Assembly (NCBI GenBank): GCA_019752535.1 | Contig: JAIEMA010000007.1 | Span: forward strand, 1-64,000 | Length of the DNA stretch: 64,000 bases | Direction: 5' to 3' | DNA from: Bacteriovoracaceae bacterium | GTDB taxonomy: Bacteria; Bdellovibrionota; Bacteriovoracia; Bacteriovoracales; Bacteriovoracaceae | In this document: positions 967 to 6,072 of the stretch, in pieces | How the letters are laid out: the number at the start of each line of letters is the position of its first letter | Position numbering within the stretch: the stretch's first letter is position 1 | Notes under the pieces: generated by a model | The model's input: only the letters and a program-made list of their open reading frames with translations | Told to the model about the DNA's origin: nothing | The model's database searches: none | Made by a program: the position numbers and the translations under genes

Positions 967-998
967 AACATAGTGGTTTGATGAGAAGTTTCTGTCAA
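967..998 (-). promoter_or_regulatory. Putative promoter of tRNA-Leu
   Basis: On the minus strand a perfect TTGACA (993-998) is followed by TATGTT (967-972), with a start expected near 960, three bases before the mature tRNA. The 20-nt spacer is longer than ideal, so the -10 choice is uncertain. The promoter overlaps the first codons of the divergent lipoprotein gene, so the two genes cannot be regulated fully independently. Confidence 0.4.
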
Positions 999-2453
999 TT
1001 TATCCTTCTAATTCTTTTGCTGGCGCAGGGCGGCTGCAGCTGGTTATTTCCTCATCGCTTAGATGATGAGGCTTTCCTTTCTCGAGTTGAACCTGTCTGG
1101 TTCGAGATGAATCAAGGGATAAAACTGGCCAGCTGGCAGGGTGAGGTTCAACCGCATTTGTTTTTTGATCCCCTTCCAGATTTAAACCCTGCATTAAGCC
1201 ATGTTCAGTTTTTACCACTCTCAATCGCTGGCAGTGAATTTAGCTATGAGCTTGATGTGGTCTCAGGCCAGCGCTATTTCTCCAGTTTTTATTGTGAGCA
1301 AAATGATGTCTGGAAAGAAAAAAGAAAAATCCCTGAAAGACCTCTCTACACTTTGGGAGTGATTCCTCGTCACTTTGATCAGTTGAATCAACCTCAAAGG
1401 ATTATCGTTTTTGGCGGCCAAGGACGATTTAAAATTGAGGAACCCGTCACTTACCGAGTGCGCATTATTGGGGCACTTGTTGAGCAGCTCTGTTTGGTCG
1501 GCAAATGCTCAGGCCCTAAAGAGTGGGTTGGCAGAATGATTCTTGTTGGAGTGGATGAAAAGGAACGTAAATTTTCAGGTGCAAAAAAGATTGAAGACTT
1601 GAAGAACCTTGTGGATATGGAGCAAGTGAAAGGTCAGCTTGAAAATCTCTATGGGCGCAATCGTCAAGCCGATGTGGACTATCCAGCTGTGAAAATTGGA
1701 AATTTGATACCGGCGAGCGAAGCGGTCGATTTTATGCTTAAGCGCTCGATTGTTTTGGTCACTAAAGAGTTAGTCACCTTACAAAAATCTTGTTCAATCA
1801 TTTATCAAAAACTTTGGAAAGATGTCGGTGAGAAGAATTTCCTTGATCAGCCGGCCCAGACGAAAGAAGAAATTCGAAAGCATGCTGATCTAGTCAAGAA
1901 ACTAAAGTTAAGTGATAAGCCGACGTATTTTCCACAGAGACTTGCTCATTTCCTGAAGAAGTACGGTGATGATTTAGCGACCTGTGGAAGACTCGTGTAT
2001 CCAGGGGATCCTAACGGGCAGATGGAAAAATTCAAATTCGTCTCATGGGTCAACATGTTCGTCCAACTTCATAAAGCGGGTTGGGAGTATGATTGCCGGA
2101 TGCAAGCTTGGCAGCCGTCTAATCTTGGAAAAGAGGCGATGGATAACATGAAAAAATACGGCATCAATTGTACTGAACGCAGCTACGATGCAGCCATGAA
2201 GTATTTGCCTGCTTTCTTGAAGACTCTGCGTGCTGCAGTCGGGCAGCGTTGGCGCTTTGTGGGTTGGGATGAACATACTTATGGAACCCACTCAAAGCTT
2301 CAAACATGGATCAATACACCGGATCGTGTTTTTGCCTGTGAGAAAGATATGAATGAAAAAATTCGTGAAGGTTGGAAAGAGAATCCTGAAGGCATGGAAT
2401 GGCTTCCTCGCTTTAATCCTCAACTGCACAAGAATGGGGACTATATTTACTAA
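981..2453 (+). CDS. Putative lipoprotein, unknown family, first gene of the NuoB/NuoCD-like unit
   Basis: The 490-residue product begins with a short basic n-region and a hydrophobic stretch (FILLILLLAQ) ending at G-G-C, a plausible but imperfect lipobox with the acylated Cys near residue 18. I do not recognise the mature protein. It has scattered cysteines (for example CLVGKC and CRM) and a mixed alpha/beta composition rich in aromatic residues. ATG 981 is preferred over the in-frame TTG at 978. Its stop overlaps the start of the NuoB-like gene (TAATG), so the two are translationally coupled, suggesting that this envelope protein works with the complex-I-like proteins. Only 23 bases separate it from the divergent tRNA, so its promoter must overlap the tRNA gene. 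Confidence 0.6.
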   Translation: MRSFCQFILLILLLAQGGCSWLFPHRLDDEAFLSRVEPVWFEMNQGIKLASWQGEVQPHLFFDPLPDLNPALSHVQFLPLSIAGSEFSYELDVVSGQRYFSSFYCEQNDVWKEKRKIPERPLYTLGVIPRHFDQLNQPQRIIVFGGQGRFKIEEPVTYRVRIIGALVEQLCLVGKCSGPKEWVGRMILVGVDEKERKFSGAKKIEDLKNLVDMEQVKGQLENLYGRNRQADVDYPAVKIGNLIPASEAVDFMLKRSIVLVTKELVTLQKSCSIIYQKLWKDVGEKNFLDQPAQTKEEIRKHADLVKKLKLSDKPTYFPQRLAHFLKKYGDDLATCGRLVYPGDPNGQMEKFKFVSWVNMFVQLHKAGWEYDCRMQAWQPSNLGKEAMDNMKKYGINCTERSYDAAMKYLPAFLKTLRAAVGQRWRFVGWDEHTYGTHSKLQTWINTPDRVFACEKDMNEKIREGWKENPEGMEWLPRFNPQLHKNGDYIY

Positions 2454-2884
2454 TGAAAAATATCTTCTCTCCTTTTATTCGCTTCCTTGATTCTTGGGCT
2501 GCACAGAAAATTGTGAGAGTCGCTCTGTTTGGACAAGGAATTGCTCTAGAGGAGTGGGCCAGTCTAAATACGTCACCCTATCGTAAAAGAAAGCCCAATA
2601 TCAAACTAGTCACTCAGCCTGACGAAGCCGAAGTCTTGGCTTTGCATGGCCCTATTACAGATTTAAGTTTTCAAGCTTTAGAATCTTGGGTCAGTGGCTC
2701 GCAAAAGTATGCAAAGCTTTTAGCCGTTGGAGCGGAAATCGAAATCAACAAAGAGGGGAGGATTGTATCCCCGAATGGAGAAGCCTCTACGTTTAAAGTG
2801 GATCGCATTCTTCCAGGTCATCCTCCGACTCCTGAAGATTTAATCCTCGCTATTCAACAATTAATGGAGCCACCACATGTTTGA
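2453..2884 (+). CDS. NuoB/group-4 hydrogenase small-subunit-like protein lacking all Fe-S ligands
   Basis: This 143-residue protein follows the small-subunit pattern of complex I (NuoB) and Hyf/Ech-type hydrogenases: a V-x-LFGQGIALEE segment where CxxC normally lies, IKLVTQPDEAEVLALHGPIT (the KLV-SPRHAD-VTGP block), LLAVGAE (VGDC/GAC block) and a C-terminal PGHPPTPEDL (PGCPPRPE block). The four ligands of the proximal 4Fe-4S (N2) cluster are replaced: G27 and I30 for the first pair, E95 for the third and H123 for the fourth. The fold is probably kept but the cluster cannot form in the normal way. It overlaps its neighbours by 1 and 8 bases. Either it is structural only, or it binds something else. 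Family assignment is good; function is unknown. Confidence 0.75.
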   Translation: MKNIFSPFIRFLDSWAAQKIVRVALFGQGIALEEWASLNTSPYRKRKPNIKLVTQPDEAEVLALHGPITDLSFQALESWVSGSQKYAKLLAVGAEIEINKEGRIVSPNGEASTFKVDRILPGHPPTPEDLILAIQQLMEPPHV

Positions 2885-4481
2885 TTGGGGCACCTTTCGC
2901 GAACTCAAAGACTTTTATACTGGCATTTTTGGAAGCTATTATCGTTTTGATCATGATCACCACCATATTCAAGTCTCAACTCGCAACTTAATTCAATGCT
3001 TAGATATTCTAAAAAATGATCTAGGCTTTTTGCTGTTAAATGATATTGCTGTCACTGCAGTAGAGGGACATCCTCTTTACCAGAAGCAATTTCCTAAGAC
3101 TGATTGGGATATCACTTATCATCTTTATCATTACGAATCTCATCAGCGCTTCCAAGTTCATTTACTCCTCTCCCATGGAGAAAGTTTGCCAACCGCTCAG
3201 AGTCTCTTTGGTAATGCTTTAAGATTTGAAAATGAAGCCAAGATTCGTTTGGGCTTACTCGTTGATCAGCCCACTCGTTTAAAAATTCCTGACTATAAAA
3301 AGAATCCAAACTTAAGTGAAGCTCCATACCCAGAAGAGTTAAACCAGTGGTACCTGTTCGATCTCAATCATCCCATCACTAAACAGCAGTGGGAGCTAGC
3401 TTGTGAGGCGAGTGGGGGCAAAATTATTAATTCTTGGATGCAAGCTGGATTTTGGAAACGTGGGTGGGAGAAGTCGGCCACACGAATGACTCCATTGATG
3501 ATGCAGCCGATTTTGGATGGACTTATTCCAACAGCAGCACCTCTAACGAATATCGCATGGGCGAAAACGGTTGAGGATTATTTTATTTGGAAGATCCCAG
3601 AGCGGGCGCAGGCCGTACGGATGATCTTCATGGAGCTCTCGCGTATTTCGCATCATCTCTCTGTTCTTGCTGATCTTGCTGACTCTTTAGGAGTCGATGA
3701 AGCTCAGCGTGTGTGTTTTGAAACCAGAGAGAGAATTCGCTCCTTATTTCAATTCTATAACGGGGGCCGTGTGGCCACGCGGTTAGCCTCATTTGGTGGA
3801 CTCTCTCACGATATTCCCCATGGCTGGGTTCAAGAAGCAATCTCATTCATGAAAGGTCTAGAGGGCGCAATTGTCTTGTATCGAAGAATGGTGGCCCATC
3901 ATCCACTTTCAAAAAAACGTCTTAAGGTTGCCGCTTTATCAGCTCACGAAGCCCTTGAATCTGGAATAACCGGTCCAGCTCTTCGAGCCACGGGTATTAA
4001 TTTTGATCTCAGAAAATCTCGACCATTTTATTTCTACAAAGACATCGATTTTGATGTTCCAGTGGGCATCCATGGCGACTCTCATGATCGCATGTTGATT
4101 TTGATTGAAGAATGTTCTGAGTCTCTCCGTATTTTATGGCAGGTGATTGATAATCTTCCTTTAGGTGATATTCGTATTGATCTTCCACAAATTGAAGAAT
4201 TCAACAACGGCACTCTAGATGTAGAAACATGGAAGGCGTGGATAAAGACTGCTGATAGAACTTGGGGAGCACAGTTTACGGGAGTTGAAGGGGCCAATGG
4301 AGAGCTGGCTTTTCATTTAGCCCTCAATCCAAATGCTCTTGAGATTTGGGCCCTAAAAATTAAAACAAATGCCCAATGTCTGGCCCATGCGCTTCCCGTA
4401 TTTTTAAAACAGTGTTCAGTGGCAGATTTATCATCTGCCCTTGCGACAATTAATATCGAAGCCAGTGCTTTAGATAGGTGA
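2877..4481 (+). CDS. NuoC-NuoD fusion-like large subunit (complex I / group-4 hydrogenase related), no Ni-Fe ligands
   Basis: The 534 residues comprise a NuoC/30-kDa-like part (about 1-160, with the S-x-LFGNALRFENEAKIRLGL block) and a NuoD/49-kDa-like part (about 165-534). The latter keeps NHP near its start, KRGWEK where HRGxEK is usual, a P-x-RA-x-x-VRMIFMELSRI helix, the FNGG-like YNGGRVATRL block, LRATGINFDLRKS and a terminal NIEASALDR. Hydrogenases of this fold carry RICGxC near the N-terminus and DPCxxC near the C-terminus; neither is present. The arrangement matches HyfG/HycE or fused NuoCD. Gene order small subunit, large subunit, ferredoxin mimics a peripheral arm. No membrane subunits are nearby. 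Confidence 0.75.
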   Translation: MFDWGTFRELKDFYTGIFGSYYRFDHDHHHIQVSTRNLIQCLDILKNDLGFLLLNDIAVTAVEGHPLYQKQFPKTDWDITYHLYHYESHQRFQVHLLLSHGESLPTAQSLFGNALRFENEAKIRLGLLVDQPTRLKIPDYKKNPNLSEAPYPEELNQWYLFDLNHPITKQQWELACEASGGKIINSWMQAGFWKRGWEKSATRMTPLMMQPILDGLIPTAAPLTNIAWAKTVEDYFIWKIPERAQAVRMIFMELSRISHHLSVLADLADSLGVDEAQRVCFETRERIRSLFQFYNGGRVATRLASFGGLSHDIPHGWVQEAISFMKGLEGAIVLYRRMVAHHPLSKKRLKVAALSAHEALESGITGPALRATGINFDLRKSRPFYFYKDIDFDVPVGIHGDSHDRMLILIEECSESLRILWQVIDNLPLGDIRIDLPQIEEFNNGTLDVETWKAWIKTADRTWGAQFTGVEGANGELAFHLALNPNALEIWALKIKTNAQCLAHALPVFLKQCSVADLSSALATINIEASALDR

Positions 4482-4485
4482 AAAA

Positions 4486-4854
4486 ATGATTCTCAAAAAA
4501 GAACATTATGTTGAACTTCCATGGTGGCGTTGGGCCCAGTTAAGAGCTCTCTTAGCATGGTCACGGCATAGTGGGGGATTCGCTCGTATGCTTGGCGCAG
4601 ATGGCAAAAAAGCCTGGCAATTAGGCCCCATAAAAATGCAGCATTCTCGTAAAGTTCCAGTACTAAATCAGAAGCTAGATGAAAACGAAATGCGTTTAGC
4701 ACGTCAGATTTGTCCCACTCGTGCCATTATTCACGATCTTAGCAAAGGCTGGGAGATCTCGGCCCCAAGATGTATTGCCTGCGGACTTTGCTATTCTTGC
4801 GCTCCCAAATCTCTCTCACCTTCAAGTGAGTCAATAGGAAGCTTTGTTCCTTAA
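4486..4854 (+). CDS. Small ferredoxin-like protein with one probable 4Fe-4S cluster
   Basis: In this 122-residue protein the cysteines cluster at the C-terminus: C76 in ICPTRAI, then C96, C99 and C102 in CIACGLC, and C105 in SCAP. In NuoI/HyfH-type 2x[4Fe-4S] ferredoxins the first half-site is CxxCxxCxxxCP. Here that first CxxCxxC is absent, leaving C76 plus C96-C99-C102 as ligands of a single cluster, with C105 left over. The N-terminal 60 residues are basic and aromatic (LPWWRWAQLR) and could dock on a membrane or partner. It lies 4 bases after the NuoCD-like gene and is probably the only Fe-S protein of the unit. Related to NuoI/HyfH, but reduced. Confidence 0.65.
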   Translation: MILKKEHYVELPWWRWAQLRALLAWSRHSGGFARMLGADGKKAWQLGPIKMQHSRKVPVLNQKLDENEMRLARQICPTRAIIHDLSKGWEISAPRCIACGLCYSCAPKSLSPSSESIGSFVP

Positions 4855-4965: not shown

Positions 4966-6072
4966 ATGCGCACATTCATGACAATTCTCTTTTTTATCGC
5001 TTCCTATTTTGCAGCTGATTGGACGGTCACTCATTTCATCGGATCAGAAGGGTTAGTCGGAGCCTTCTTCGATTCGTACTCATGGGTTTGGTATATCGGT
5101 TACACGATTGTTATCTCTCACCTCACTATCACGGCCATGTCTCTCTCGTTTCATCGCTCTCATACGCACAAAGGAGTTGAGTTCAATCCTTACCTCGATA
5201 TGCTTATGCAAGTATGGCTCTGGTGTGTGACGAGCATGTCAAAGCCTGATTGGGTTTCTGTTCACGTTTATCACCACGCTCACAGTGACACAGACAAAGA
5301 TCCGCATTCACCGGTGAAGAAAGGTTTCTGGCGTGTCTTCCTTCTTGGTGTCTTTGATTACTCTCAGGCCAAGAGCTGGCCAGATGTTTTGAAGATTAGA
5401 AAAACTATTAAACTTAATAAGCTTGAAAAATTTATTTCTGAAAATCTTTTTTTCGGACCTTATATTTTCTCATGCCTTCTTCTAGTCCTCTTCGGTGGCC
5501 ACACAGGATTAATTCTCCTTGTGACAAACTTCCTCATTTCTCCACTCTTCGCTGTGGGGGGCGTGAATGCTCTTGCTCACACTTGGGGATACCGTAATCA
5601 TCTCGACTCTGGAGACAATAGCCGCAACATCGGCTTCCTGTTCCCGTTGAACTTTATTATTTGCGGCGAGCTTGATCACAATAACCATCACGCTCATCAG
5701 CGCTCGGCTTCTTTCCGCCATAAGTGGTATGAGTTCGATATTGGTTGGGCTTATATTTGGACACTTGCAAAATTTAAATTGGCCAATGTACGCCACAGCT
5801 ATACGACACTGACTTTGAAGCAAGACATGAGCCGTAAAGTGAAAGCTCTTATCGAGCGTGATTCTCGCTTTAAGCAAAAGCTTGAAGAGATGGCGAAGGA
5901 ATATCACACGTCAGCTCAAGAGCTTCGTGATGCCGTAGAAGCTTATATCCAAGGTCAGAAAGTGAAGTTCAATGGTCAGAAGATTATTTTTGATGCTCGA
6001 ATGAAAGCATTCATTGAAGAGCTTCAGCGCACAGTTCGTATTAATGAAGAGCTTGGATTAGTTTACGCCTAA
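4966..6072 (+). CDS. Membrane fatty acid desaturase (delta-9 acyl-CoA/acyl-lipid type)
   Basis: This 368-residue di-iron desaturase introduces a cis double bond into acyl chains at the inner membrane. Three histidine boxes are present: HRSHTH (63-68), HVYHHAH (100-106) with the usual DTDKDPHSP after it, and HNNHHAH (238-244). Hydrophobic membrane segments lie near residues 2-20, 40-60 and 160-200. The C-terminal 90 residues are a charged cytoplasmic extension. A Shine-Dalgarno AAGGA lies 9 bases before ATG 4966. The 3' end overlaps the convergent aat gene by 15 bases. It belongs to the stearoyl-CoA desaturase class; the exact substrate and position are inferred from the family. Confidence 0.88.
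   Translation: MRTFMTILFFIASYFAADWTVTHFIGSEGLVGAFFDSYSWVWYIGYTIVISHLTITAMSLSFHRSHTHKGVEFNPYLDMLMQVWLWCVTSMSKPDWVSVHVYHHAHSDTDKDPHSPVKKGFWRVFLLGVFDYSQAKSWPDVLKIRKTIKLNKLEKFISENLFFGPYIFSCLLLVLFGGHTGLILLVTNFLISPLFAVGGVNALAHTWGYRNHLDSGDNSRNIGFLFPLNFIICGELDHNNHHAHQRSASFRHKWYEFDIGWAYIWTLAKFKLANVRHSYTTLTLKQDMSRKVKALIERDSRFKQKLEEMAKEYHTSAQELRDAVEAYIQGQKVKFNGQKIIFDARMKAFIEELQRTVRINEELGLVYA

Follow-up and report, generated by a model that had tools for sequence, protein, structure and literature searches.

Respiratory complex I is usually viewed as a set of parts that exist for electron transfer and proton pumping. An 11-subunit complex I-like enzyme without the NADH-oxidising module has been described as an ancestral version (PMC11238625), and hydrogenase-related complexes (Ehr) that lack the NiFe ligands are known, for which a coupling of redox to charge translocation is suspected (PMC6349859). 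A complex I derivative without both the electron path and the pump residues, and with intermediates, was not found in the literature searched, nor was any paper on the locus described here; many subscription papers were outside our reach, so this absence is unproven, and a term search of PMC12361115 returned neither 'Bdellovibrio' nor 'cysteine'. In the present study, we describe a locus of the Bacteriovoracaceae whose NuoB-like gene is likely to encode a subunit of a ghost complex I (hereafter the ghost) kept for a non-redox role, where both the assembly of the complex and its job are inferred.

The window, i.e. the whole stretch of 64000 nucleotides that was analysed, lies on contig C16 of a genome of 3.49 Mb, and it carries on the forward strand a tightly packed operon in the order lipoprotein, NuoB-like, NuoCD-like and NuoI-like. 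The lipoprotein gene (981–2453, 490 aa) begins with the ATG at 981 (the ORF list starts with a TTG at 978), and the ATG of the NuoB-like ORF (2453–2884, 143 aa) overlaps its stop codon. These two genes are followed by a NuoC–NuoD fusion (2877–4481; PF00346 with an E value of 4.5e-50 and PF00329 with 2.3e-5) and by a NuoI-like protein of 122 aa (4486–4854), assigned from ferredoxin-type matches together with sequence and family comparison. No match to NuoE, NuoF or NuoG of the NADH module was obtained at the window locus, where the row of genes stops at the NuoI-like gene. A desaturase-like gene, named by eye, lies after it at 4966–6072, as it does in several relatives. Upstream, ARAGORN placed a tRNA-Leu(UAA) gene on the reverse strand (868–957), divergent from the operon; such a gene adjoined the lipoprotein start on the opposite strand at all 18 loci checked, and it is a conserved neighbour, not an operon member. 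The synteny around the locus extends beyond the operon, and thus the neighbourhood alone is weak evidence of cooperation between the genes.

The source genome (G000) has other nuo sets, in which NuoB and NuoH were identified by Pfam and the remaining subunits by eye. Contig C4 holds NuoA to NuoN, as read by eye from ORF order and sequence, and contig C40 (B, C, D and I) together with contig C5 (A, H, J, K, L, M and N) makes up an 11-subunit set, also read by eye. The NuoB/CD/I trio of the window is therefore the third peripheral set of this genome. Contig C19 (L023, 3612–9031) encodes a 911-aa protein, which we take to be DUF2309/DabA-like, followed by two antiporter-like proteins of 445 and 448 aa; these were considered as a partner of the ghost and rejected, as they form a separate row of their own.

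An earlier note on this DNA, made from the sequence alone, had claimed that all four cysteine ligands of cluster N2 are replaced in the NuoB-like protein and that this points to selection for the fold rather than random decay; an alignment with homologues and a low dN/dS were proposed there as checks. The first claim held. In an alignment with the two intact NuoB proteins of the same genome, the four ligand columns, all cysteine in the intact copies, read Ile30, Ala31, Glu95 and His123, and the NuoB-like protein has no cysteine at all. Glu95 (in VGAE) and His123 (in PGHPP) had been named as replaced ligands correctly, whereas the proposed change of a CxxC to Gly27-Gln-Gly-Ile30 failed: in the first N2 motif of NuoB the two cysteines are adjacent (CC, as in FGLACCAIE of the C40 copy), and the replaced residues are thus Ile30–Ala31, not Gly27 and Ile30. 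The statement that the surrounding blocks are kept held in part, since PGxPPTPE and VGA are retained from NuoB, but only HGP and LV of the other blocks named (KLV and HGPIT) recur across the genus. Chance does not account for this state: the NuoB-like gene was present in all five genomes of the genus examined, the other four at 33–53% identity, and no ligand cysteine was found in four of the five, the exception being G001 with a cysteine at one ligand column.

Pfam recognized the NuoB-like protein weakly, with a PF01058 match (E 0.084, 13 bits) below the cut-off of 27 bits. An AlphaFold2 model computed from 13 degenerate NuoB-like sequences, 12 of them without any ligand cysteine and one (L039) with a single one, had a pLDDT of 85.8. 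All 50 Foldseek rows listed for this model were NuoB/PSST/Nqo6 of complex I or its counterpart in a hydrogenase or NDH complex, and VIA-align against NuoB-type chains gave Z scores of 11.6–13.8 with an rmsd of mostly 4–5 Å (4.4 over 133 aligned residues for the top match with Z 13.8). The protein is predicted by the model to adopt the NuoB fold.

The loss of chemistry affects the whole complex and not NuoB alone, a point that the earlier note had missed. The quinone-site residues of NuoD are those of an HxxxH motif, a tyrosine and an aspartate. Both intact copies of the source genome read H, H, Y and D at these columns, and the CD-like protein of the window reads H, K, P and S, i.e. the second histidine is replaced by lysine, the tyrosine by proline and the aspartate by serine. 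No CxxC is present in the NuoCD-like protein, indicating that it has no NiFe site; membership of hydrogenase 4 or the group 4 NiFe hydrogenases was rejected because these CxxC NiFe ligands are absent from the large subunit. The NuoI-like protein of the window retains one ligand set, consisting of the CP of motif 1 and the CxxCxxC of motif 2, which together are the ligands of one cluster. In two other members of the window's genus, the species G003 and G004 (L020 and L019), the NuoI-like protein is truncated, with ~82 residues after the ATG and a different set of cysteines left, and the dN/dS of this pair was 0.49.

The family sample contained 129 Bacteriovoracaceae genomes, with records labelled Bacteriovorax stolpii and Halobacteriovorax among them. 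The lipoprotein matched in 109 of these and in none of the 239 phylum genomes outside the family (368 phylum genomes in all). The region downstream of the lipoprotein was examined in all 109 genomes. A NuoB-like gene was found beside it in 97, four of which (in G032, G056, G096 and G123) were missed by the profile and assigned by position only, and a CD-like gene was found at 98 loci; the remaining 12 lipoprotein loci had no NuoB-like gene, which is explained by a contig end in two. All four N2 ligands were present in 48 of the 97 NuoB-like proteins, lost in 47 and partial in two. Among the 47 classed as lost, the cysteine of G001 mentioned above was the only one at a ligand column, the other 46 having none, and the ORFs are 124–179 aa long. 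The ligand columns of the most degenerate NuoB proteins are uncertain, and those of G053–G055 were re-read by eye, with the CC shifted by one. Outside the 109 genomes, G076 has NuoB- and CD-like genes (L192, 6789–8920) without a lipoprotein match, and the ligand sites of its NuoB-like gene are mostly lost. The lipoprotein–CD locus occurs twice in G030 (C1 and C5), an assembly with 9% contamination.

The states of the other subunits were then set beside those of N2. The quinone-site H/H/Y/D was kept in 12 of the 98 CD-like proteins; NuoE, NuoF and NuoG lie between CD and I in ten of these loci, the remaining two being broken off by a contig end. All 12 have the four N2 ligands, and wherever the region included NuoI, it had both motifs. 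One or two remnants of NuoE/F/G were seen in seven other genomes, and the combination of four N2 ligands with neither the quinone site nor NuoE/F/G is common (e.g. g14 and g16). NuoI in the 47 ligand-less genomes had both motifs in 11 and neither motif intact in 31, 28 of which contain CP plus CxxCxxC; it was not found in five. Counted over all genomes, 34 NuoI proteins were without an intact motif, again with CP plus CxxCxxC in 28, and the NuoI motifs were lost with N2 kept in three genomes. This distribution of states among living genomes suggests that the NADH module and the quinone site tend to go first, and N2 later.

A tree of the lipoprotein and the CD-like protein was built for 107 genomes (G016 and G114 gave no sequence), and the partial genomes G058 and G060 were excluded from the loss count. 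The ligand-less state is inherited by clades, with six losses on the tree compared with a mean of 36 when the labels were shuffled. Three losses rest on strong nodes, and the others on a weak backbone. The well-supported losses are those of the window's clade (support 0.996) and of G056/G057 within g17 (support 1.0 each), together with one or more of those in g36, g7+g25 and g44.

Selection on the ligand-less NuoB was estimated from close pairs, as synonymous sites seemed saturated in a codon-model approach across whole genera; many YN00 values failed, and several NG86 dS values were undefined. The only close ligand-less pair with unsaturated synonymous sites (G085/G091) showed a dN/dS of 0.09 (dN 0.01, dS 0.15–0.18), and seven further ligand-less pairs were at or near saturation (dN 0.16–0.33, dS 1.4–3.6 or undefined). 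Pairs of intact NuoB had a dN/dS of 0.03, suggesting that the constraint is weaker in the ligand-less NuoB. The low dN/dS proposed as a check was thus seen in one measurable close pair, and the earlier claim of selection for the fold rather than random decay is supported by the fold, this dN/dS and the inheritance by clades.

A candidate membrane arm for the ghost came from G008, which has an intact peripheral set and two NuoA-H-J-K-L-M-N arms in tandem. The second arm matched the first subunit by subunit (97–100% profile match), and no peripheral genes were found in the 19.9 kb read around the two arms. Other genera have seven small membrane ORFs where the second arm would lie, and their sizes follow one another in the same order (107, 298, 155, 93, 505, 268 and 334 aa in G047, for instance). 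Forty-two genomes were examined for the second arm: 33 had a row of five to seven ORFs (the intact G008 included), three had an unparsed row (G026, G063 and G064), and in six it was absent at its place (G109, G091, G094, G095, G028 and G022). The ORF lengths for 15 of the 33 rows were picked by hand, and the 42 do not include L223 (G111), which was excluded as too short. All seven arm ORFs of G061 were accepted by Pfam, as were six of the seven of G068 (the exception being J, with an E value of 0.02) and, as NuoH, the one arm ORF scanned in G081; none of the seven ORFs of G047 matched a Nuo family in Pfam. In profile comparisons, the intermediates matched the intact arm at 97–100% on all seven diagonals, and the small arms matched the intermediates at 98% for H, 80% for J, 77% for K, 76% for N, 12% for A, 3% for L and 0% for M. 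That the small arms are homologous follows from this graded series, which links them, by Pfam and by profiles, to the intact arm. An orphan soluble module without a membrane partner, considered as an explanation of the locus, was dropped once the second arm had been found.

The candidate arm of the source genome lies on contig C5 (L017, from 7743 down to 5384) and consists of ORFs of 98, 269, 144, 104 and 214 aa. Among these five, the best profile probability fell on the expected partner only for A, J and K (5, 13 and 21% respectively). Pfam found no Nuo family in the row, and the sole Pfam match of the 214-aa ORF was a sub-threshold one to 7TMR-DISM_7TM (E 0.0033). That the five small ORFs are the ghost membrane arm of the source genome is an inference from place, size and weak signals. 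A conserved protein of ~1070 aa follows the membrane-arm genes (L017 2032–5322, L186 257–3475 and equivalents), even in genomes without the ghost arm.

G008 retains the proton-path residues that were tested, several Lys/Glu residues of NuoL/M/N persist in the intermediates, and most of those tested are gone in the small forms of the arm. The columns of NuoK Glu36 and Glu72 hold no glutamate in the ghosts, except in G061 at the first; in G000 they read Met and Cys in an ORF whose assignment as NuoK-like is itself weak. No motif was found for two of the nine residue tests (NuoL Glu144 and NuoM Lys234), and the residue columns of the smallest arm proteins are unreliable. The ghost membrane genes evolve fast, with 21–56% identity in pairs from g13, g16 and g46. 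No ghost arm occupies the place of the second arm in any of the four g37 genomes or in the single g10 genome checked, and these keep the true complex I together with the NuoB/CD/I ghost genes. Conversely, G033 has a ghost arm and no lipoprotein or CD match. Given the arm of G033 without lipoprotein and CD, and the NuoB and CD of G076 without a lipoprotein, the parts are only loosely tied to each other.

Six genomes (G023, G030, G032, G123, G124 and G125; completeness 81–99%) had no match to PF00146 (NuoH) and none to PF01058 (NuoB). Their sole NuoD-like match is the CD-like gene of the locus (with two loci in G030), and the seven-ORF ghost arm was present in all five of the six that were looked at (not G124). 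In G030, G033, G123 and G026, the genomes for which the upstream sequence was read, the ghost arm comes directly after a gene 45–48% identical to the G047 gene that precedes the true arm; with the same flanking gene directly before the ghost arm, the true arm is missing and the ghost is present. In G022, both arms as well as NuoB/CD are absent. On the tree, this complex I-less clade groups as sister to that of the window, and the ligand loss is common to both (support 0.996). One member of it, G031, has one canonical NuoH match in a fragmented assembly of 720 contigs. For the arm of the complex I-less clade, profile scores on the diagonal were obtained with J (82%) and K (28%) but not with A, H, L, M or N.

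The lipoprotein was modelled by AlphaFold2 with a pLDDT of 85.8. Foldseek returned 138 PDB matches at E ≤ 1e-3, of which the 50 listed were all pyrophosphatases, and VIA-align gave Z scores of 15.4–17.3 over the 50 rows listed; each list is dominated by one fold, so that other parts of the lipoprotein were barely probed. With E values up to 10 allowed, a profile search of the PDB yielded just three sequences, each a pyrophosphatase and the best at 0.15, and no match was accepted in Pfam, where PF00719 appeared in two of 18 members with a best E of 0.0085. The model predicts a family-I inorganic pyrophosphatase fold for residues ~57–268, plus a cysteine-rich part. The metal-binding aspartates of DGDPxD are replaced, the motif reading LNQPQR in the window protein and GxPQK-like in much of the family. 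With the fold kept and the aspartates gone, a dead-looking exported enzyme is thus encoded with a dead-looking complex I; a cooperation of the lipoprotein with the NuoB/CD/I trio is only inferred.

The Cys-Gln of the lipoprotein signal peptide is encoded by TGTCAA (window 993–998), as it is at all 16 loci holding the start (L036–L052; L043 is without it). The reverse complement, TTGACA, sits near the expected −35 box of the divergent tRNA-Leu(UAA) gene, and a need of the opposite strand may be what conserves the Cys-Gln codons. The probable −10 box of the tRNA gene is 20 bases off in the window, a poor spacing.

In the history that we propose and regard as well supported, an ancestor within the Bacteriovoracaceae had an extra complex I in two operons, a peripheral one of the order lipoprotein–NuoB–NuoCD–NuoE–NuoF–NuoG–NuoI and one for a membrane arm, NuoA-H-J-K-L-M-N, which followed the corresponding arm of the ordinary enzyme. 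This extra complex is nearly intact today in at least two genera. Elsewhere, lineage by lineage, the NADH module, the quinone-site residues and the pump residues were lost; the ligands of N2, and with them one NuoI cluster out of two, went several times, in the window's clade among others, the polypeptides meanwhile being held under purifying selection. The remaining subunits may still assemble, which is inferred, as there are no expression, assembly or activity data. NuoB would then be a structural wedge between NuoCD and the membrane part, and the pseudo-pyrophosphatase lipoprotein might be its partner at the outer side of the membrane.

Our data show the fold, the losses and the order in which these fall across present-day genomes, the low dN relative to dS and the presence of the ghost where no true complex I was found; what the ghost does is not part of this. 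We favour a membrane-bound scaffold or signalling platform as the mechanism, yet this is inferred, and although no other mechanism seems likelier to us, on balance we would lean against its being correct. A bolder reading, for which the chances seem to us evenly divided, is that some ten degenerate subunits and the pseudo-pyrophosphatase lipoprotein make up an assembled machine that neither carries out redox chemistry nor pumps. Its role would be more durable than complex I respiration, since in one clade the ghost has outlasted the working enzyme.

The rival that survives best, and which we nevertheless consider unlikely, is slow decay, in which a redundant complex I paralogue is being lost with no function left and deletion is merely slow. 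In its favour are the stepwise loss in many lineages, the 12 of 109 lipoprotein loci without a NuoB-like gene (two of them at a contig end), the ghost arm missing in six of 42 genomes and down to five ORFs in G000 and G003, the truncated NuoI of G003/G004 with its dN/dS of 0.49, and the higher dN/dS of ligand-less than of intact NuoB (0.09 compared with 0.03). Against it are the full-length NuoB-like ORFs in 47 ligand-less genomes, a dN well below dS, and the retention of the ghost in the clade of G023, G030, G032 and G123, where true complex I was not found. Furthermore, the ligand-less state is common to a clade of several genera (support 0.996), and we judge it to be too old to have survived neutrally.

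A second rival, a reduced sensor of redox state or iron in which the single cluster of the NuoI-like subunit is active and NuoB and NuoCD are its holders, is also improbable. The ligand set left in NuoI, which we take to be of the N6b type, speaks for it, with the four cysteines of one cluster in 28 of the 34 NuoI proteins without an intact motif, as do both NuoI motifs kept in 11 ligand-less genomes. However, no NuoI-like ORF was found at five ligand-less loci, some of them at contig ends, and two species from the genus of the window have only a truncated form of the protein. The ghost could also be a brake, or an assembly decoy, that targets the ordinary complex I alongside it in the cell. 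This would fit the common subunit folds and the co-occurrence in most genomes, but it is very unlikely and, unless the function has changed, largely refuted by the persistence of the ghost where neither NuoH nor NuoB of complex I was found.

Under the preferred reading, in which a ghost complex I has been retained for something other than redox chemistry, one bacterial family offers a natural series in which the parts for chemistry are removed and the scaffold persists. Such a series lets one ask which subunit contacts survive without N2, the quinone site and the pump residues, and what use a complex I shell has. It also carries a warning for annotation, as similarity may name genes Nuo although their residues rule out the known activity.

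Compared with respiratory complex I (NuoA–N, with peripheral NuoB, NuoCD and NuoI), the ghost has the same subunit folds, NuoC–NuoD fusion and gene order, and in relatives the same membrane-arm order A H J K L M N. It differs in lacking the NADH module, in the replacement of the N2 ligands and of the quinone-site residues, in keeping no more than one NuoI cluster, and in a candidate membrane arm whose pump residues, as far as its weak ORF assignments allow, are lost. The exported lipoprotein resembles family-I inorganic pyrophosphatases in the predicted fold of residues ~57–268 and differs from them in its export, its cysteine-rich addition and the loss of the DGDPxD aspartates. The ghost is like the 11-subunit enzyme (PMC11238625) in the absence of NuoE/F/G, and in addition it is without N2 and the quinone-site residues and coexists with two other nuo sets. 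Ehr is likewise a complex I relative without the ligands of its catalytic metals (Ni and Fe); in the ghost, however, the iron–sulfur ligands and the pump residues are lost too, and the large subunit matches NuoC/NuoD.
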